Of a DNA stretch of 64,000 bases, positions 7,408 through 61,662 are shown piece after piece (position 1 is the stretch's first letter; the number at the start of each line of letters is the position of its first letter). The stretch is from contig NZ_CP016616.1 in assembly GCF_002741015.1 (NCBI RefSeq), positions 4,924,501 to 4,988,500 on the forward strand, written 5' to 3'. The notes beneath the pieces were generated by a model, which ran no database searches, had not been told where the DNA came from, and worked only from the letters and a program-made list of their open reading frames with translations. A program made the translations under genes and the position numbers. The DNA comes from Microvirga ossetica. GTDB taxonomy: Bacteria > Pseudomonadota > Alphaproteobacteria > Rhizobiales > Beijerinckiaceae.

Positions 7408-7513
7408 GATCCCTAAACGGAACTTTATATCGATACTATGTTGCAGAACAGGCACGGCGGCGCAAGGGAAAGCGGGAAGGGCGGGCGGCCGTTGTGTCGC
7501 AGAGCGCCGCGAA

Positions 7514-7620
7514 ACCCTCCTCCCCCTTGTGGGGAGGAGTTGGAGGTGGGGGTGTGAGCGATAGCCTGTCAATGTGTGGCGGAAACACCCCCACCCCGGC
7601 CCTCCCCACAAGGGGGAGGG
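7514..7620. repeat. intergenic palindrome, type C
   Basis: Two arms (CCTCCTCCCCCTTGTGGGGA and its near inverse ending at 7620) flank a centre containing GTGAGCGATAG. The same design recurs at 36723-36821 and 60859-60968, with a partial copy at 10490-10518. It fills most of the 310-base gap between the adaptor and the WYL-like gene; the rest of that gap shows no gene. Confidence 0.8.
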
Positions 7621-9527: not shown

Positions 9528-9792
9528 GGTGAACTCTCGCAGACGAGGGCCGGACGTGAATGACTGCCGACAGGAAACTCTTGCGGGGGCCGAATGTGGT
9601 CCCCGACCGCGACGAACTCAAGCGCCTCGTTGCGGAAGCCATGCAGCAGGAGTGCCGCTTCAATGACTTCCTCCACGTTGCGGTCGGGCTTGTCAGGGCT
9701 ATCCCATCCCGATCCGGCAAAGCTACCCACCCACGTCATCCTCGGGCTTGGAGCCGGCCATCCCCGTTCCAGAACCGCCGAAGCCGCCCTCT
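9528..9792. other. spacer with only doubtful open frames
   Basis: Both strands have an open frame over about 9560-9710, with amphipathic predicted peptides such as DELKRLVAEAMQQECR on the plus strand. Neither has a good ribosome-binding site, and each runs into repeat sequence. It may be the remnant of a gene; I cannot support an intact one. Confidence 0.3.
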
Positions 9793-9883
9793 CACGTCAT
9801 CACCGGCCTTGTGCCGGTGATCTCGATTGTTGGAGGCGCCGCGCTTGTCCGTATCGGGATGGCCGGCACAAGGCCGGCCAAGA
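9793..9883. repeat. intergenic palindrome, type A, copy 1
   Basis: A hairpin-forming pair of arms: CGTCATCACCGGCCTTGTGC... and ...GGCCGGCACAAGGCCGGCC, joined by GATTGTTGGAGGCGCCGCGC. The same unit occurs at 36000-36093 and 61555-61662, always on the promoter side of the LexA-box element. Confidence 0.75.
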
Positions 9884-9944
9884 CAGTGGGAGTGTGACGA
9901 GAGGGCGACGAGAGGGGCGAGCGGAAGAGCGCCGGCAACGTTAT

Positions 9945-9988
9945 GTTCTTACTTTGTTCTTGACAGGGATGGCAACCTCGGCTATACC
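9945..9988 (+). promoter_or_regulatory. LexA box plus sigma70 promoter, element copy 1
   Basis: GTTC-TTACTTT-GTTC (9945-9959) matches the alphaproteobacterial LexA operator GTTC-N7-GTTC. It directly abuts TTGACA (9960-9965); 17 bases later comes TATACC (9983-9988). LexA bound here would block RNA polymerase, so expression should rise on DNA damage. Confidence 0.8.
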
Positions 9989-10195
9989 CTTGCGCAAGAT
10001 CTGCTCCTGACGAGGGGCGCGCTCGCGAGGCGTCGCAGTGTGGGAGCAGGCACGGTCTCGTGCATGTACCGTACGCAGGTGCGTGTGACGGGAGGCCCAG
10101 GCTGTGTGCTGCTGAATAGGGATTGGTCCCAGGCCCCCGCTGACGTTGCGGTTCCCGCCTGGCGCAGTCACTGAGCCGGCACCGCCTGTCCGCCT

Positions 10196-10227
10196 AAAAA
10201 AGCCGTGCGCGAAGCGGCCTCCCGGCT
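10196..10227 (-). terminator. opposite-strand terminator in element copy 1
   Basis: On the minus strand, AGCCG...CGGCT closes a GC-rich hairpin (alternatively GCCG/CGGC) followed by a run of six T. The same hairpin occurs in all three copies, so antisense transcripts entering the element would end here. Confidence 0.6.
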
Positions 10228-10358
10228 CTTCCATTTCACACCATGCATCAGCGAGCCGGGCCGCCCTTCGCGCCACCCTCGCTCTCCACAAGGCTCGGAG
10301 CCCAACGGCTCCGGGCCCCACGGTGCTGGCTGTTTGACATCGACCGATCGCCCCCCTC

Positions 10359-10518
10359 GACGTCATGGCCGGACTGGGTCCGGCCACCCACGTCTTAGGA
10401 CCCACCGCGCTGCCAAGACGTGGATCCCCGGATCAAGTCCGGGGATGACGGCGAGGGGCTAGAGAGTGCTCGACGATAAGGGCGCAGGTACCCTCTCCCC
10501 CCTAGTGGGGGAGGGGAA
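10359..10518. repeat. intergenic palindrome B and partial C, copy 1
   Basis: Type B: CGTCATGGCCGGACTGGGTC... with GGCCGGAC/GTCCGGCC, then CCGGATCAAGTCCGGGGATG (to about 10456). A short remnant of type C (CCTCTCCCCCCTAGTGGGGG) lies at 10490-10518. The remaining bases up to aspS hold another small palindrome (CCCGGATCGGCTTCGCCGTC) and no gene. Confidence 0.7.
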
Positions 10519-17586: not shown

Positions 17587-17607
17587 GGGCAGGTTTTCAG
17601 GAACCCG

Positions 17608-17718
17608 CCGTCATCCCGGGGCCGCGCAAGCGGAGCCCGGGATCCATAACGGCTAACGACGCAGAACTGCGTGCGAGGCCGATCGTCTCTTCTTGAAACG
17701 TCGTGGTTATGGATCCGC
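17608..17718. repeat. intergenic repeat D, left part, interrupted by IS30 element
   Basis: CCGTCATCCCGGGGCCGCGC... GAGCCCGGGATCCATAAC... GAAACGTCGTGGTTATGGATCC matches 42208-42345 closely. There the repeat continues with CCGCCTGCGCGGGGA; here that right end is found only after the insertion sequence (about 18778-18797). Confidence 0.75.
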
Positions 17719-34358: not shown

Positions 34359-34473
34359 ATCGCGCGAAAAAAATCTCGGACAAGGTTACGAAAAAGTGCG
34401 CATCATCAACCGTTGCTTAACCTGAACAGGCTTTTAATGGCTTCATCGAGTTGCGTTCGGTTGGGGTTCAGTG

Positions 34474-35532
34474 ATGCGGTTGCGTGTGGGTTCTGGGCAT
34501 TGGGTGGCGGTGTCGCGAATCGCTCTGGTGGGATTGATCGGCAGTGCGGCTGCCGCATGCAGCACCGATAGCGCGCGGTTTGCGGAGAATCCGTTCTCCA
34601 ACCCCTTCGCCGCCAGCGAGCGGATGGAGACGACTGCCTCGACCGCGTCACAGCCCCAGAGTCAGCCGTCCTATTCCGCGGCTCCGATGGCGACGCCTTC
34701 GGTCCATGCGCAGGCCCTGCCGCCCGTGCAGTCCCAGCCCCTGTCGCAGCCGACCCGCATCGCTTCCGCTCCGGCCCCGATTCAGCCCCGCCCCGTGCCG
34801 GTGGCTCAGACCGCTCCGGCCCAGCCCAAGTTCCGCCTCGTCGACACCTCGAAGGTGCCGGCCGCCACGACCCCCGTCGCAGCCGCCGAGCCGGTAAAGC
34901 GCGTCCGTCCCGGCATGACCTCGACGGCCCAGGCGCCCGCTCCCGCGAAATCCGCGCCGATGCAGGTCGCCTCCGCCACGAACGAGCCGCTCGTGTCCGC
35001 TCCCAAGCCCCTCGTGTCGGCCCCGAAGCCGGTCGTCGAGCAGCCCAAGGTGGCCGCACTCACCCAGCCTGAGCCGATGAAGCCGGCCGTGGCGGTGCAG
35101 CCGACCGCTCCGCAGCCCGAGGCCAAAGCGCCCGCGCCGGAGCCTGAGGCGACTGCCAGCGTGTCCGGCGACTTCCGCTGGCCTGCCCGTGGCCGCGTCA
35201 TCGCCGGCTTCGGCGCCAATGGCGGCAATGAGGGCATCAACATCGCCGTTCCCGAGGGCACGCCGGTCAAGGCCACAGAGGCCGGCACGGTGACCTACGC
35301 GGGCAGCGAGGTGAAGGGCTACGGCAACCTCGTCCTTATCCGGCACGAGAACGGCTACGTCTCGGCCTATGCCCATAACGGCGCGCTCAGCGTCAAGCGC
35401 GGTGAGCAGGTGAAGCGCGGCCAGGTAATCGCGACCTCCGGCCAGTCCGGCAACGTGACCTCGCCGCAACTCCACTTCGAGATCCGCAAGGGTGCGCAGC
35501 CCGTCGACCCGATGAAGTATCTCGGCGGCTAA
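34474..35532 (+). CDS. NlpD-like LytM/M23 factor, degenerate active site
   Basis: A 352-residue envelope protein with an N-terminal hydrophobic export signal (ALVGLIGSAAAACSTDS, a possible but weak lipobox). A Pro/Ala-rich linker of about 180 residues without a recognisable LysM domain precedes a C-terminal M23/LytM domain (about 235-352). In that domain the usual metal ligands HxxxD are replaced (GGNEGINIAVPEG), while the later His in YAHNGAL and LHFEIRKG remain. Such degenerate LytM domains do not cut peptidoglycan but activate amidases at the septum. Its place behind surE-pcm matches nlpD in other proteobacteria. GTG 34471 is an alternative start. Confidence 0.85.
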   Translation: MRLRVGSGHWVAVSRIALVGLIGSAAAACSTDSARFAENPFSNPFAASERMETTASTASQPQSQPSYSAAPMATPSVHAQALPPVQSQPLSQPTRIASAPAPIQPRPVPVAQTAPAQPKFRLVDTSKVPAATTPVAAAEPVKRVRPGMTSTAQAPAPAKSAPMQVASATNEPLVSAPKPLVSAPKPVVEQPKVAALTQPEPMKPAVAVQPTAPQPEAKAPAPEPEATASVSGDFRWPARGRVIAGFGANGGNEGINIAVPEGTPVKATEAGTVTYAGSEVKGYGNLVLIRHENGYVSAYAHNGALSVKRGEQVKRGQVIATSGQSGNVTSPQLHFEIRKGAQPVDPMKYLGG

Positions 35533-35999: not shown

Positions 36000-36093
36000 A
36001 CGTCATGGCCGGCCTTGTGCCGGCCATCCCGATGCGGACAAGCGCGGCGCCTCTAACAATCGGGATCACCGGCACGAGGCCGGTGATGACGTG
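36000..36093. repeat. intergenic palindrome, type A, copy 2
   Basis: CGTCATGGCCGGCCTTGTGC...GGCGCCTCTAACAATCGGGA...CACCGGCACGAGGCCGGTGA. Compared with copy 1 the two arms are swapped in order, that is, the palindrome is inverted relative to the core. Confidence 0.7.
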
Positions 36094-36135
36094 AGAGGGT
36101 CAACGGGAGGCAAGCGGATGCGAGAGCAACGTTAT

Positions 36136-36179
36136 GTTCTCACTTTGTTCTTGACAGAGATGGCAACCTCGGCTATACA
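36136..36179 (+). promoter_or_regulatory. LexA box plus sigma70 promoter, element copy 2
   Basis: GTTC-TCACTTT-GTTC (36136-36150) directly followed by TTGACA (36151-36156), a 17-base spacer and TATACA (36174-36179). Spacing is identical to the other two copies. Confidence 0.8.
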
Positions 36180-36383
36180 CTTGCGCAAGATCTGCTCCTG
36201 CACGAGGGGCGCGCTCGCGAGGCGTCGCAGTGTGGGAGCAGGCACGGTCCCGTGACAGGTCTCGCACCCCTGTCGACGGGAGGCCCAGGCTGTGTGCTGC
36301 TGAATAGGGATTGGTCCCAGGCCGCCGCTGACGTTGCGGTTCCCGCCTCGGGCAGTCACCGAACCGGCACCGCCTGTCCGCCT

Positions 36384-36415
36384 AAAAAAGCCGTGCGCGA
36401 AGCGGCCTCCCGGCT
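36384..36415 (-). terminator. opposite-strand terminator in element copy 2
   Basis: Minus-strand AGCCG...CGGCT hairpin followed by six T, identical to copies 1 and 3. Confidence 0.6.
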
Positions 36416-36566
36416 CTTCCATCAAACGCATGCATCCTCGAGCCGGGCTGCCGATCGCGCCACCCTCGATCTCACCACAGGCTCGGAGCCCAAAGCTCCG
36501 GGCCCACAGGTGCTGGCTGTTTGACATCGCCTGAACAATACCTCTCCGCGTCAGGGCCATACCCGC

Positions 36567-36821
36567 GACGTCATGGCCGGACTGGGTCCGGCCACCCACG
36601 TCTTAGGACCCTCTGCGCCGTCAAGACGTGGCTCCCCGGGACGAGCTCGGGGATGACGGTAAGGCGCCTGGAATCGCCGCAGTGGAGATCCGGCATTGTT
36701 CAACGAGTGAAGCGCCACAAGCTCTCTCCCCCTTGTGGGGGAGAGGGGGTGTGAGCGATAGCCGATCAAGCTCCGGCGTCAGCACCCCCCTCCCTGGCCC
36801 TCCCCCACAAGGAGAGAGGGG
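36567..36821. repeat. intergenic palindromes B and C, copy 2
   Basis: Type B at 36567-36660 (CGACGTCATGGCCGGACTGG... AAGACGTGG) and type C at 36723-36821 (CTCTCCCCCTTGTGGGGGAG... CCTCCCCCACAAGGAGAG, centre with GTGAGCGATAGCCGATCAAG). They lie in the same order behind the core as in copies 1 and 3. Confidence 0.75.
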
Positions 36822-36909
36822 AACAGCGCGTTATCCTGCACCCGATTCCGGATCGTCACTTACGCTGCGTCCGGAATGACAGTGAGAGCATGATCCCGGC
36901 TGCGACCGT

Positions 36910-37800
36910 TCAGATCGCCTTGCCCAGGCGGCCGGCCAGATCCTGGATGAATTGCCAGGCCGTGCGGCCGGAGCGGGCGCCGCGGGTCGTCGCCCATTCG
37001 AGCGCCTCGGCGCGGATTGCGTCGCGGTCGGCCTCGAGGCCGAGATGGTCGACATAGGCGAAGACCATGTCGAGATACTCGTCCTGGCTGCATTTGTGGA
37101 AGCCGAGCCAGAGGCCGAAGCGGTCCGACAGGGAGACCTTCTCCTCCACCGCCTCGCCCGGATTGATGGCGGTCGAGCGCTCGTTCTCCATCATGTCGCG
37201 AGGCAGGAGGTGGCGGCGGTTCGACGTGGCATAGAAGATCACGTTGTCTGGCCGCCCCTCGATCCCGCCTTCGAGCACAGCCTTGAGGGATTTGTAGGAG
37301 GTGTCGTCCCCATCGAAGGACAGGTCGTCGCAGAAGACGACGAAGCGGTGCGGATCGGGGCGCAGGAGGCCCATGAGGTCGGGCAAGGTCTCGATGTCCT
37401 CGCGGTGGATCTCGATCAGCTTGAGCGGACGGGCGCCCGCAGCCCTGGTGTGGTTGATCTCCGCATGCACCGCCTTGACCAGGGAGGACTTGCCCATGCC
37501 GCGGGCGCCCCAGAGCAAGGCGTTGTTGGCCGGCAGGCCCTTGGCGAAGCGCTGGGTGTTCTCGGCGAGCAGGTCGCGGACCCGGTCGATTCCCCGCAGC
37601 AGGCTCATCTCGACCCGGTTCACCTTAGGCACGGGGGAAAGCCGGCGCCCGGCTGCCTGCCACACGAAGGCATCTGCCGCTGCGAAATCGGCCTGAGGCA
37701 CGGAAGAGGGGGCGAGGCGCTCCAGCGCATCGGCGATGCGCGTCATAAGAGCCAGGGACTCGGGTGAATTCAGGTCTGCGGGCATCGTTGATCGGGCCAT
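36910..37800 (-). CDS. DUF815 P-loop ATPase
   Basis: A 296-residue AAA-like ATPase of the DUF815 family. Walker A is LLWGARGMGKSSLVKAV, Walker B FVVFCDDLSFDGDD; the sensor region YATSNRRHLLPRDM and the DRFGLWLGFHKCSQDEYL box are family hallmarks. Biochemical function is not established to my knowledge. It is divergent from yajC, and DUF815 beside yajC-secDF is a recurrent alphaproteobacterial arrangement, hinting at a link to secretion. ATG 37800 is used; ATG 37785 is an alternative. Confidence 0.85.
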   Translation of the reverse strand: MARSTMPADLNSPESLALMTRIADALERLAPSSVPQADFAAADAFVWQAAGRRLSPVPKVNRVEMSLLRGIDRVRDLLAENTQRFAKGLPANNALLWGARGMGKSSLVKAVHAEINHTRAAGARPLKLIEIHREDIETLPDLMGLLRPDPHRFVVFCDDLSFDGDDTSYKSLKAVLEGGIEGRPDNVIFYATSNRRHLLPRDMMENERSTAINPGEAVEEKVSLSDRFGLWLGFHKCSQDEYLDMVFAYVDHLGLEADRDAIRAEALEWATTRGARSGRTAWQFIQDLAGRLGKAI

Positions 37801-42193: not shown

Positions 42194-42207
42194 GAAGATT
42201 CATGCTC

Positions 42208-42345
42208 TCGGCGTCATCCCGGGGCCGCGTAAGCGGAGCCCGGGATCCATAACCGCTGACGGTACAGAAAAGCGCGCAACGCTGGTCATCTCTGTCTGAA
42301 ACGTCGTGTTTATGGATCCCCGCCTGCGCGGGGACGACATGTCGA
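42208..42345. repeat. intergenic repeat D, uninterrupted copy
   Basis: GCGTCATCCCGGGGCCGCGT...GAGCCCGGGATCCATAACC...GAAACGTCGTGTTTATGGATCCC and then CCGCCTGCGCGGGGACGAC. It is the intact counterpart of the copy split by the IS30 element. A small CCCGGATCGCCTGCGGCGTC palindrome follows to about 42405. Confidence 0.75.
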
Positions 42346-57546: not shown

Positions 57547-58977
57547 TCATAGGATGAAATCGGCAGCCGAGAGCTGCGCCTTCAGCACGTTCTCGAGCTT
57601 TATGTAGTGACTAGACCCGGAGAAATAGACGAGCGAATAGCCAATCCTGTCCGCGATGCTGAGATCGGCGAAGGAGGAGAAGCGCCACGCCCTCAGGTCG
57701 ATCTGGTCCTCCCCGGGACGGAAATATTGAATCGTGTCCTTGTCGGAGGAGAGATCGAAGGCGAAGAGGTCGCGGCCTCCGCCGCCGTCCATCGTATCGT
57801 TTCCGCTGCCGCCGTTCAGGTAATCGGCACCGGTGCCGCCATAGGCGGAATCGCCGATCAGGCGGTCATTGCCGGAGCCGCCGAGCAGCGTGTCGTTGCC
57901 GTAGCCCGCATTGGCGCTCGTGACCTGCGCATCGCCGTACAGCACGTCGTTGCCGGAACTGCCATTGAGATAATCGTGCCCGCCGCGGCTCTGGTCGTTC
58001 AGGGAGACGGCATCGCCGTAGAGCGTGTCGGTGCCGGTGCTGCCATGAAGGCTGTCGCTGCCGCCGGCGGACGAGCCCCACATGAAGTAGGCATCGCCAT
58101 ACAGGATATTGTTTCCGCTTTCTCCTGCCAGGTAGTCGGCTCCTCCGACCGCAGAATCATAGAGCGCATAGGCATCGCCAAAAAGCCGGTCGCTGCCGGA
58201 GCCACCATAGAGGCTGTCGCTGCCGCCGAGGCTGGAATGGCGCATCTCGTACCCGTCGCCATAGAGAATGTCCTCAGAGGCGCCGCCCTTCAGGATATCG
58301 TGTCCGCCCGAGGTCGAATGGAAGAGATTGCGTCCATCGCCGAAAAGCGTGTCCCGTCCGCTGTCGCCGCTCAGCGTATCCGATCCGCCGACGGCCCTGC
58401 TGCTCAGGCTATAGCTGTCGCCGTAAAGCCTGTCGTCGTCGTTACCGCCATACAGGTAATCCCCGCCGCCCTTCGCCGAGCCCGTCATCGAATACGCATC
58501 GCCGTAGAGGGTATCGCTGTCGTTGTCGCCGTAGAGCCAGTCCGCGCCGCCGGTCGTTGTTGCCGACATGGAATAGGCATCGCCGAACAGACTGTCGTTG
58601 TCGTAGCCGCCATAGATCCTGTCGGCGCCGCCCCGTGCGGAGCCCGACATGCTGCGCGCATCGCCATAGAGCCTGTCGTAGCCGTATTCACCCCAGATCT
58701 TGTCCGCGCCGCCGGTCGAGGAGTAGCTCATCGTGTAGGAATCGCCATAGACGGTGTCGCCATCGAAGCCGGCCCAGATCGAATCAGCGCCGCCTCGCGC
58801 CGAAAGCCGTAAGCTCCTCGCATCGCCATAAAGGTAATCGGCTCCATTGTAGCCGTGGAGCGCATCGCCGCCGGCTGTGCGTGCCTGGAGCGTGCCGTCG
58901 CTGTCGCCGTAAAGGGTATCGGAGACGCTGCCGCCTTCCAGAAAATTCCTGCCCAATGAGCCGATCTTATGTGCCAT
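57547..58977 (-). CDS. RTX-like protein built of 27-residue repeats
   Basis: A 476-residue protein made of about 13 tandem units of 27 residues, for example DTLYGDAYSMTGSAKGGGDY followed by LYGGNDD. Each unit holds two calcium-type turns (LYGD and GGaDyLyGg) separated by a nine-residue stretch such as AYSMTGSAK, so one of three nonapeptides of a normal beta-roll has lost its glycines. After the repeats come GGSGNDTMDGGGGRDLFAFD, a TIQYFRPGEDQIDL block and the ending LSAADFIL, as in type I secreted proteins. No transporter gene is near. ATG 58977 is used. A calcium-dependent extracellular scaffold is the likely role. Confidence 0.75.
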   Translation of the reverse strand: MAHKIGSLGRNFLEGGSVSDTLYGDSDGTLQARTAGGDALHGYNGADYLYGDARSLRLSARGGADSIWAGFDGDTVYGDSYTMSYSSTGGADKIWGEYGYDRLYGDARSMSGSARGGADRIYGGYDNDSLFGDAYSMSATTTGGADWLYGDNDSDTLYGDAYSMTGSAKGGGDYLYGGNDDDRLYGDSYSLSSRAVGGSDTLSGDSGRDTLFGDGRNLFHSTSGGHDILKGGASEDILYGDGYEMRHSSLGGSDSLYGGSGSDRLFGDAYALYDSAVGGADYLAGESGNNILYGDAYFMWGSSAGGSDSLHGSTGTDTLYGDAVSLNDQSRGGHDYLNGSSGNDVLYGDAQVTSANAGYGNDTLLGGSGNDRLIGDSAYGGTGADYLNGGSGNDTMDGGGGRDLFAFDLSSDKDTIQYFRPGEDQIDLRAWRFSSFADLSIADRIGYSLVYFSGSSHYIKLENVLKAQLSAADFIL

Positions 58978-60799: not shown

Positions 60800-60858
60800 G
60801 CGCTCCGACCGAGGGCGGAGCGAGGCCACCCGATATCGGGTTCGGGATGAGGCGCTAT

Positions 60859-60968
60859 TCCCCTCCCTCCTTGTGGGGGAGGGCCAGGGAGGGGGTGCTG
60901 GCGCCGGAGCTTGATCGGCTATCGCTCACACCCCCCTCTCCAACTCTCCCCCACAAGGGGGGAGAGGG
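60859..60968. repeat. intergenic palindrome, type C, copy 3
   Basis: CCCTCCCTCCTTGTGGGGGA... centre with GCTTGATCGGCTATCGCTCA ...CTCTCCCCCACAAGGGGGGA. The stretch from 60800 to 61675 has no gene; it holds palindromes C, B, the LexA-box element and palindrome A. Confidence 0.75.
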
Positions 60969-61010
60969 CTTCCGGCGCTTTTCTCGTCGAACTCGCAAGC
61001 CCAGCCCCTC

Positions 61011-61104
61011 GCCGTCATCCCCGGACTTGATCCGGGGAGCCACGTCTTGACGGCGCAGAGGGTCCTAAGACGTGGGTGGCCGGACCCAGTCCGGCCATGA
61101 CGGC
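61011..61104. repeat. intergenic palindrome, type B, copy 3
   Basis: GCCGTCATCCCCGGACTTGA...CACGTCTTGACGGCGCAGAG...CCGGACCCAGTCCGGCCATG, the inverse of 10359-10456. Confidence 0.75.
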
Positions 61105-61238
61105 GGAGATGTGTTGTTCAATCGATGTCAAACAGCCAGCACCTGTGGGCCCGGAGCCGTTTGGCTCCGAGCCTTTTGGTGCGATCGAGGGTGGCGCGAA
61201 GGGCGGCCCGGCTCGATGATGCATGGTGATGATGGAAG

Positions 61239-61270
61239 AGCCGGGAGGCCGCTTCGCGCACGGCTTTTTT
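61239..61270 (+). terminator. opposite-strand terminator in element copy 3
   Basis: AGCCG (61239-61243) pairs with CGGCT (61261-61265), followed by six T. It is antisense to the LexA-controlled promoter, as in the other copies. Confidence 0.6.
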
Positions 61271-61473
61271 AGGCGGACAGGCGGTGCCGGTTCGGTGACT
61301 GCGCCAGGCGGGAACCGCAACGTCAGCGGGGGCCTGGGACCAATCCCTATTCAGCGGCACGCAGCCTGGGCCTCCCGTCGACAGGGGTGCGAGACCTGTC
61401 ACGGGACCGTGCCTGCTCCCACACTGCGACGCCTCGCGAGCGCGCCCCTCGTCAGGAGCAGATCTTAGGCAAG

Positions 61474-61517
61474 GGTATAGCCGAGGTTGGGACTATTGTC
61501 AAGAACAAAGTGAGAAC
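61474..61517 (-). promoter_or_regulatory. LexA box plus sigma70 promoter, element copy 3
   Basis: On the plus strand GAAC-AAAGTGA-GAAC (61503-61517), the perfect LexA box; reading the minus strand, TTGACA (61502-61497), 17-base spacer, TATACC (61479-61474). Confidence 0.8.
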
Positions 61518-61554
61518 ATAACGTTGCCGTCACCCCCTCCTGTCACCCTCCCAC

Positions 61555-61662
61555 GTCATCACCTCCCCGGACTTGATCCGGGGACCCGTGCCGGTGATCC
61601 CGATTGTCAGAGGCGCCATACTTCACAGGATCGGGATAGCCGGCACAAGGCCGGCCATGACG
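61555..61662. repeat. intergenic palindrome, type A, copy 3
   Basis: CCCCGGACTTGATCCGGGGA followed by CCGTGCCGGTGATCCCGATT and ...GCCGGCACAAGGCCGGCCAT. It lies on the promoter side of the core, as for copies 1 and 2. Confidence 0.7.

Follow-up and report, generated by a model that had tools for sequence, protein, structure and literature searches.

To our knowledge, few RNA effectors have been described for the SOS response. OLE, GOLLD and HEARO are large structured RNAs of unknown role with a complex conserved fold. The element described here appears similar to them in such a fold; unlike them, it has no Rfam match at the gathering score, is dispersed, and reaches up to dozens of matches per genome. 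SymE/SymR and DinQ with AgrA/AgrB of E. coli are LexA-controlled small RNA/toxin loci (PMC1891008 and PMC3567139, available excerpts), and the element resembles them as a predicted SOS-controlled locus with a small RNA. In these excerpts they are single loci with a small protein, whereas the element consists of many putative structured-RNA copies with no coding signal. A second point of comparison is boxA, an RNA site bound by NusB/NusE (excerpts of PMC6614801 and PMC4807359) and known, as far as the available text goes, as a cis signal close to the transcript start (PMC10250234, PMC6614801). Its gamma-proteobacterial consensus is given as GYTCTTTAANA in the accessible part of PMC5725501. The element's boxA-like sequence has the same form as that of local rrn leaders; unlike rrn leaders and lambda nut sites (boxA, NusB-NusE), it lies at the 3′ edge of a unit of ~340 nt, with a LexA-type promoter and no 16S motif in 343 loci. 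CRISPR leaders also carry boxA on a non-ribosomal non-coding transcript (PMC7862264, citing Stringer et al., excerpt), and in that text boxA is upstream of the RNA served, unlike the 3′-edge boxA of the element. Finally, the REP, BIME and MITE repeats, for example Br-REP1 and Br-REP2 of Bradyrhizobium (PMC5082802, excerpt), are dispersed and intergenic like the element. As described there, Br-REP1 and Br-REP2 are short palindromes, whereas the element has its own promoter, operator and predicted multi-helix RNA. The same excerpt mentions, with data not shown, that Br-REP2 in Bradyrhizobiaceae is surrounded by a larger repetitive element. Among the titles and abstract openings listed for the openly accessible literature on Microvirga and Bradyrhizobium RNAs, SOS RNAs and boxA, none describes the element, and the remark on Br-REP2 is the nearest mention that we saw.

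The window analyzed here is the whole stretch of 64,000 nucleotides of Microvirga DNA, part of contig C1 of the host genome (G000). Three near-identical copies of ~405 bp each, defined by pairwise alignment, lie at 9935-10343 (+), 36127-36529 (+) and 61123-61526 (-), where the first-pass annotation had placed them. Their pairwise identities are 92.5, 92.5 and 93.5% over 399, 400 and 402 positions, with 14, 13 and 3 gap columns. Each copy opens with a perfect GTTC-N7-GTTC (9945-9959, 36136-36150 and 61503-61517 (-)), followed by TTGACA, N17 and TATAC. The complete 43-base string GTTCN7GTTCTTGACAN17TATAC, also claimed beforehand for all three copies, occurs exactly three times in the window and in none of 100 shuffles. 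The 15-base box by itself is not rare (5 in the window against 1.24 expected), so it is the combination of operator and promoter that is not due to chance. The features are listed below; R1 is a covariance model of the 5′ domain, and A1 and A2 are the alignments of the 5′ and 3′ domains.

9945-9959, plus strand: copy 1, LexA-type operator GTTCTTACTTTGTTC (pattern scan, alignment)
9960-9988, plus strand: copy 1, promoter TTGACA-N17-TATACC (pattern scan, alignment)
9995-10339, plus strand: copy 1, predicted RNA body, its start set by promoter spacing and its end at the boxA-like tail
9982-10107, plus strand: copy 1, R1 match (G000:C1:4934482-4934607; R1 search)
10328-10339, plus strand: copy 1, boxA-like tail GGCTGTTTGACA (copy alignment, comparison with rrn boxA)
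36002-36099, no strand assigned: REP-like palindromic flank upstream of copy 2 (kin at 9787-9884 and 61564-61661)
36136-36150, plus strand: copy 2, LexA-type operator GTTCTCACTTTGTTC (pattern scan; same type at recA and lexA)
36151-36179, plus strand: copy 2, promoter TTGACA-N17-TATACA (pattern scan, conservation profile)
36186-36526, plus strand: copy 2, predicted RNA body of ~340 nt, its ends set by promoter spacing and the boxA-like tail
36177-36298, plus strand: copy 2, 5′ domain, made up of P1 (a hairpin containing the near-invariant GAGGGGCGCGCTCGCGAGGCGTCG) followed by P2/P3 (A1 row L001:1573-1694)
36365-36528, plus strand: copy 2, 3′ domain, AAAAAAGCCGTGCGCG then a long hairpin, a terminal G+C hairpin and the tail (A2 row L001:1761-1924)
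36480-36506, plus strand: copy 2, terminal G+C-rich hairpin (A2, copy alignment)
36515-36526, plus strand: copy 2, boxA-like tail GGCTGTTTGACA (copy alignment; rrn boxA of Microvirga, Methylobacterium and Bosea)
36562-36667, no strand assigned: REP-like flank downstream of copy 2 (kin at 10354-10459 and 61006-61111)
61503-61517, minus strand: copy 3, LexA-type operator GTTCTCACTTTGTTC (pattern scan, alignment)
61474-61502, minus strand: copy 3, promoter TTGACA-N17-TATACC (pattern scan, alignment)
61126-61467, minus strand: copy 3, predicted RNA body, both ends putative
61359-61480, minus strand: copy 3, R1 match (G000:C1:4985859-4985980; R1 search)
61126-61137, minus strand: copy 3, boxA-like tail GGCTGTTTGACA (copy alignment)

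Copy 2 has an nlpD-like gene (34471-35532, +) on one side and an ATPase/DUF815-like gene (36910-37800, -) on the other, names that are our own reading of the ORF sequences. REP-like palindromes stand ~10-55 bp away on both sides of all three copies; the initial statement that the repeats are unlike REP palindromes is correct for the element itself but not for its surroundings. The window also contains another dispersed repeat (beginning GGGGGTGTGAGCGATAGCC) at 7511-7610, 36745-36851 and 60830-60972, which is near element copies 2 and 3 but over 2 kb away from copy 1. Away from the element, 17596-17716 and 42199-42319 form a direct repeat of 121 nt with 81% identity. An array of imperfect 81-bp (27-codon) repeats at 57847-58799 resembles, we presume, proteins with repeated calcium-binding motifs.

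The promoter was compared across Microvirga using 161 of 163 copies aligned on the -35 box; L084 and L143 were left out as they had no usable -35. GTTC-N7-GTTC was present in 158 of the 161 copies, a count of sequences and not of independent events, because some genomes are included twice and the copies are related. The operator, which adjoins TTGACA, is among the best-conserved parts of the promoter. Its eight arm positions carry 1.90-2.00 bits; in the seven-position spacer the first carries 1.14, three carry 0.64-0.66 and the last three (TTT) carry 1.56-2.00 bits. TTGAC reaches 1.77-2.00 bits and CTATA of the -10 box 1.64-1.90 bits. We take GTTC-N7-GTTC to be the alphaproteobacterial type of LexA box, and the promoter fits the alphaproteobacterial form CTTGAC-N17-CTATAT. 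A simple promoter scan did not call the copy 2 promoter because it demands T at position 6 of the -10 box.

Boxes of the same type were located at the SOS genes of the host genome. Its lexA has GAACACAGCGAGAAC (reverse box) at -75 from the ATG on the gene strand, and all three recA genes are boxed, with GAACAAAAAAAGAAC at -102, GTTCTTGCTTTGTTC at -74 and GTTCTGTCTTTGTTC at -73. Of these recA loci (L250, L251 and L252), two are on contig C2; every one of the three has a LexA-type box of its own, and the two C2 boxes have the CTTTGTTC half in common with the element's GTTCTCACTTTGTTC. We also observed five equal-scoring matches in this genome (L169-L171 and two places on C3), which are 115-aa frames with a LexA-type DNA-binding domain and perhaps belong to a repeated mobile element. 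The SOS control proposed in the first-pass annotation is well supported for Microvirga by these promoter sequences, and we regard an RNA gene under LexA as highly probable.

The proposal of a small-RNA family was evaluated by covariation. A1 consists of 53 sequences with 31 pairs, selected from 162 candidates after removal of similar ones, and 88.9% of its cells are paired compared with 80.8% after shuffling, a value that none of 500 shuffles reached. Both sides of a pair changed in 153 cells, compared with 68.2 ± 6.6 in the shuffled alignments (again 0 of 500). The number of pairs with a double change (17) was reached by 103 of 500 shuffles, so this one of five measures is not unusual. A2 comprises 31 rows (a 32nd was dropped for its large gap), drawn from the 70 of 166 copies with a [CG]T[CG]TTTGA tail. 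Since its rows were selected by the tail, tail conservation in A2 was not counted as evidence. A2 has 41 cells changed on both sides compared with 15.9 ± 3.6, above all 500 shuffles. In both alignments all slid versions scored lower than the real pairing, a comparison that favors the real structures, as they were derived from the same alignments. The paired 5′ domain is the most conserved part, and a middle region of ~90 nt is absent from some members. The covariation of the hairpins could also come from palindromes at the DNA level.

No coding signal was detected, in agreement with the earlier remark that no protein fits all three copies. Among the 18 host-genome copies, variable columns were distributed over the codon phases as 50/44/39, and 127 of 150 gap runs were not multiples of 3. 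The mean longest ORF over 159 copies was 60.8 aa in sense, 58.2 aa in antisense and 55.9 aa after shuffling. A protein-coding element was rejected on the grounds that there is no codon-phase bias and the longest ORFs are barely above shuffled. When the 155-aa antisense ORF of copy 2 was used as a query, 47 predicted proteins covering 30-88% of it were obtained, called "hypothetical protein" or nameless, with one carrying Pfam PF05673; we read these as spurious ORFs. The Rfam search proposed at the outset gave no match at the gathering score in the window, in 20 loci or in 9 loci, sets that cover relatives and the divergent member (L178, in both sets). With relaxed thresholds, copy 2 and this divergent member gave matches only far below the gathering score, the two best of which sit on the REP flank. 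A known RNA family was rejected on this basis. Because of the covariation, the absent coding signal and the absence of an Rfam match, the transcribed part looks like a structured non-coding RNA.

Two alternatives bear on this result. The copies might be an SOS-induced family of ordinary base-pairing sRNAs with many paralogues, which would suit elements that are multicopy, promoter-driven and intergenic (4 of 96 overlap a gene call). However, conservation is highest in the paired 5′ domain, and copies so alike within a genome are ill-suited to diverging seeds, so we find this highly improbable. An inert, functionless repeat in which promoter and operator merely hitch-hike is barely credible. 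It would explain why 7 of 48 Microvirga genomes do without the element, but not the near-invariant box arms beside three variable middle positions, the compensatory changes in A1 and A2, or the promoter-like sequence that relatives in other genera retain in place with lineage-specific motifs.

The 3′ end of the unit, a subject beyond the first-pass annotation, was compared with rrn leaders. Many Microvirga copies close with a boxA-like sequence (GGCTSTTTGACA) of the kind present in the rrn leaders of Microvirga, Methylobacterium and Bosea; all three window copies end in GGCTGTTTGACA. The rrn leaders compared are plasmid-borne, with one record per species: Microvirga lotononidis has TGTTCTTTGACA 198 nt before 16S, Methylobacterium radiotolerans has CGCTCTTTGACA at -200 from 16S, and Bosea sp. 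F3-2 has CGCTGTTTGAAAATTGAA at -209 from 16S. When the best 12-mer was scored against TGCTCTTTRACA, 86 of 154 Microvirga copies reached at least 10, and none of 154 antisense or 154 shuffled sequences did. The other 68 copies remained below 10 of 12 and are not clearly above the controls, which peak at 9. The commonest form among genus tails scoring at least 9 is GGCTCTTTGACA. Outside the genus, a boxA-like tail was found in 9 of the 66 sequences that extend far enough, at 8 places, all in genomes of family f36 (G411, G434, G283 and G423); none was found in antisense among all 69 sequences examined. The G411 copies end in GCTGTTTGAAAATTGAA or GCTGTTTGAAAATTGAAT, similar to the Bosea sequence. 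The tail is absent from the three divergent Microvirga members examined (L178, L287 and L291). Relatives without it may differ in their rrn boxA, make a longer RNA or lack a boxA altogether. A duplicate of the rrn leader itself was rejected, because the 343 loci contain no 16S motif and, with the wider covariance model R2, the best hit at the three rrn leaders has an E of 1.1, which is not credible.

The position of the tail is relevant to how it might act. That the boxA-like sequence closes the conserved unit instead of lying near its start counts against a boxA function. A cis device would make use of this position: the LexA-controlled promoter and boxA-ended leader would send Nus-modified, Rho-resistant RNA polymerase into downstream DNA. 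In line with this, the unit carries at its 3′ edge a boxA-like sequence such as rrn leaders have, and a terminator scan called no terminator-like site after copy 2. Against it, the next gene is in sense orientation at 45 and in antisense at 51 of the 96 loci with both neighbors called, and a structured leader of ~340 nt would be superfluous. We consider such a device very unlikely.

The prediction that the genome holds many copies was borne out. BLAST detected 18 copies in the host genome (9.63 Mb, 6 contigs), and GTTCN7GTTCTTGAC was found at 19 places, compared with 1 for the reversed control pattern. These 19 are the 18 BLAST copies and one place heading a divergent relative, and R1 also gave 19 matches. 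With 3 of the 18 copies, the window is richer than the genome average. The divergent single member (L178, G000:C1:3091097) has its own LexA box, with genes on either side that we read from their sequences as metX-like and chorismate-mutase-like. Two similar divergent members with boxes present (L287 and L291) were seen in G023, and L286 of G009 looks decayed, its box being damaged and its RNA region containing a REP palindrome. All 19 matches in the host genome are on C1 (5.84 Mb), and in four other Microvirga genomes with several contigs (G017, G020, G036 and G069) every one of the 34, 19, 29 and 27 matches is on C1. As a sign of function this confinement is weakened, since an exact REP 17-mer is equally confined to C1 in the host genome (15 of 15). 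R1 matched 41 of 48 Microvirga genomes, with up to 34 copies; the other 7 had no copy, also on re-search at higher depth, so the RNA is dispensable.

Relatives were also detected beyond the genus. The 22-base core motif was found in at least 120 stretches of named genomes, which are a sample of the copies; the matches listed come from Microvirga, apart from three (L061, L151 and L164) in Rhizobiales bacterium YIM 77505, where TTGACA is kept and the LexA box is absent. Across the order, 19 of 397 genomes, the host genome included, had an R1 match, and they represent 11 of 142 genera, with several matches weak (E up to 0.008), the E-values of R1 and R2 rough, and relatives undercounted because 8 candidates were scored per genome. 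R2 gave 1 to 57 matches in the 18 non-Microvirga genomes positive for R1, and at least 5 in 16 of them; these genomes were chosen for matching R1, and R2 was partly built from their loci. Profile relatives therefore occur in 10 genera of the order besides Microvirga, and R1 had no match in the 19 listed genomes from other genera of Microvirga's own family. Several draft contigs of relatives (L305, L306, L308, L309, L330 and L333) stop ~50-75 bases past the matched RNA domain, so the repeats probably break assemblies and copy counts from drafts may be too low. A search with copy 2 at E 1e-5 matched none of 72,556 plasmid and 50,697 phage records, a set from which records near the host genome may be left out, and the exact core motif was not found on viral contigs. 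A plasmid or phage origin was rejected on this basis.

The relatives outside the genus have different promoter regions. None of 49 inspected copies has a LexA box, so as far as seen the box appears to be specific to the Microvirga branch and to have been added to an older or more widespread RNA. Copies of one genome tend toward their own common promoter region, which is promoter-like and in the same place. The copies of G398 (L330-L333) have a common inverted repeat ATAATCCTTG...CAAGGATTAT over the -35 box and spacer, perhaps the operator of another regulator of the same RNA. Most copies of G411 (L311-L316, with L317 a variant) have GGGGATACNAATCCCC upstream of the RNA, a lineage-specific inverted repeat, most copies of G434 have GATTTTCCGAAATC in the promoter region, and G110 and G187 have TTATCCCCGC-like motifs. 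Several f36 copies (G411 and G283) follow a (CC)CCGGAATGA or CCCCGGAATGA that also occurs in the Br-REP2 consensus printed in the available part of PMC5082802, so these copies and Br-REP2 may touch. An identity with the Bradyrhizobium REPs was rejected, as the kinship to Br-REP2 is partial and limited to the flanks.

The sites of the copies were compared using 138 loci from 30 genomes (named records including YIM 77505, and the host genome). Sixty of the 138 loci fell into 21 groups with both flanks common across species. All 72 shared pairs with both flanks were in the same orientation and none was inverted; 8 further pairs with a single shared flank had an inverted arrangement. Such co-oriented sites indicate that many element sites are old. 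Over ~180 nt at the element start, mean identity was 80.5% in the 72 shared pairs, 86.5% within a genome and 77.8% when unrelated sites of two species were compared. Of 66 pairs that could be tested, 62 had an orthologue below the mean paralogue likeness on at least one side, and in none of the 66 was the orthologue more alike than the best paralogue of both. Because copies are more alike within a genome although sites are shared between species, the pattern is one of concerted evolution, presumably by gene conversion or a similar process.

The site of copy 2 behaves differently from these shared sites. Among the best 30 nlpD loci of 48 genomes, the element follows nlpD only in G000, G025 and G066, the top three by nlpD score, and always in the same orientation. 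No element motif was found at the other 27 loci, where the DUF815-like end lies 91-476 bp past nlpD, at several directly after the nlpD terminator. The filled sites contain an insert of ~1 kb made of REPs and the element. For G025, no DUF815-like gene appears in the 1,500 bases read, and sameness of the site is therefore established for its left flank alone. Copy 2 appears to have been gained recently. The G066 copy is without the middle region present in G000 and G025, which is in line with replacement by a sister copy.

These data bear on the main rival, a selfish non-autonomous dispersed element with REP-type palindromes and its own regulated promoter, in which RNA structure serves spread and SOS control would time spread to repair and recombination. 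It fits the REP and element insert after the nlpD terminator in three genomes with 27 of the best 30 loci motif-less, the REPs beside the window copies, the confinement of both element (19 of 19) and REP 17-mer to C1, and a copy number of 0-34 in the genus with none in 7 of 48 genomes. It fits poorly with the 21 cross-species site groups and their 72 co-oriented pairs with none inverted, the 8 single-flank inversions aside, and the conserved promoter, operator and boxA point to transcription. We regard this rival as doubtful. The earlier idea of a mobile non-coding cassette is partly right: it fits the site of copy 2, filled in 3 of those 30 genomes, and fits less well with the many sites that are shared in fixed orientation.

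We tentatively favor, at slightly less than even confidence, a LexA-repressed multicopy structured RNA that engages NusB-S10 and perhaps curbs rRNA synthesis under DNA damage. Each copy would be a gene for a structured non-coding RNA of ~340 nt, kept silent in growth by a LexA operator that overlaps the sigma-70 promoter, and DNA damage would derepress all ~19 copies together. The RNA would end in a usable boxA and might bind the NusB-S10 (NusE) pair; in bulk it could titrate the pair from the rRNA operons, so that less rRNA would be made during DNA repair. Given an RNA gene under LexA, the case for Nus-factor engagement is evenly balanced, and titration in trans as the main effect is unlikely overall. 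Several results weigh against the favored reading: 68 of 154 Microvirga copies score below 10 for boxA, the tail is uncommon outside the genus and missing from the divergent members, 7 of 48 Microvirga genomes do without the RNA, copy 2 has no terminator-like site behind it, and one covariation measure on A1 is ordinary. According to the available excerpt of PMC4807359, citing its ref. 24, massive transcription of nutL titrates Nus factors and lowers rRNA, a precedent that makes a trans effect of the element RNA conceivable.

In summary, these observations point beyond the three repeats first noticed to a boxA-like 3′ end, box-less relatives in other genera and the within-genome likeness of the copies. 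The element RNA genes exceed recA (3) and lexA (1) several-fold in the same genome and have the same type of operator. The predicted RNA family occurs in 11 of 142 sampled genera of the order, reaches as many as 57 profile matches in a single genome and matches no Rfam family. Differing promoter motifs on one RNA across lineages would represent regulatory rewiring of a multicopy RNA. The favored reading in its widest form, an order-wide structured RNA class put under LexA in Microvirga and acting as a boxA-bearing NusB-S10 sponge that throttles rRNA synthesis on damage, is distinctly unlikely at present. The boxA-like end nevertheless predicts NusB-S10 binding and lower rRNA output on DNA damage, and such a sponge, an idea that we advance with marked reserve, would be an RNA arm of the SOS response without a known counterpart.
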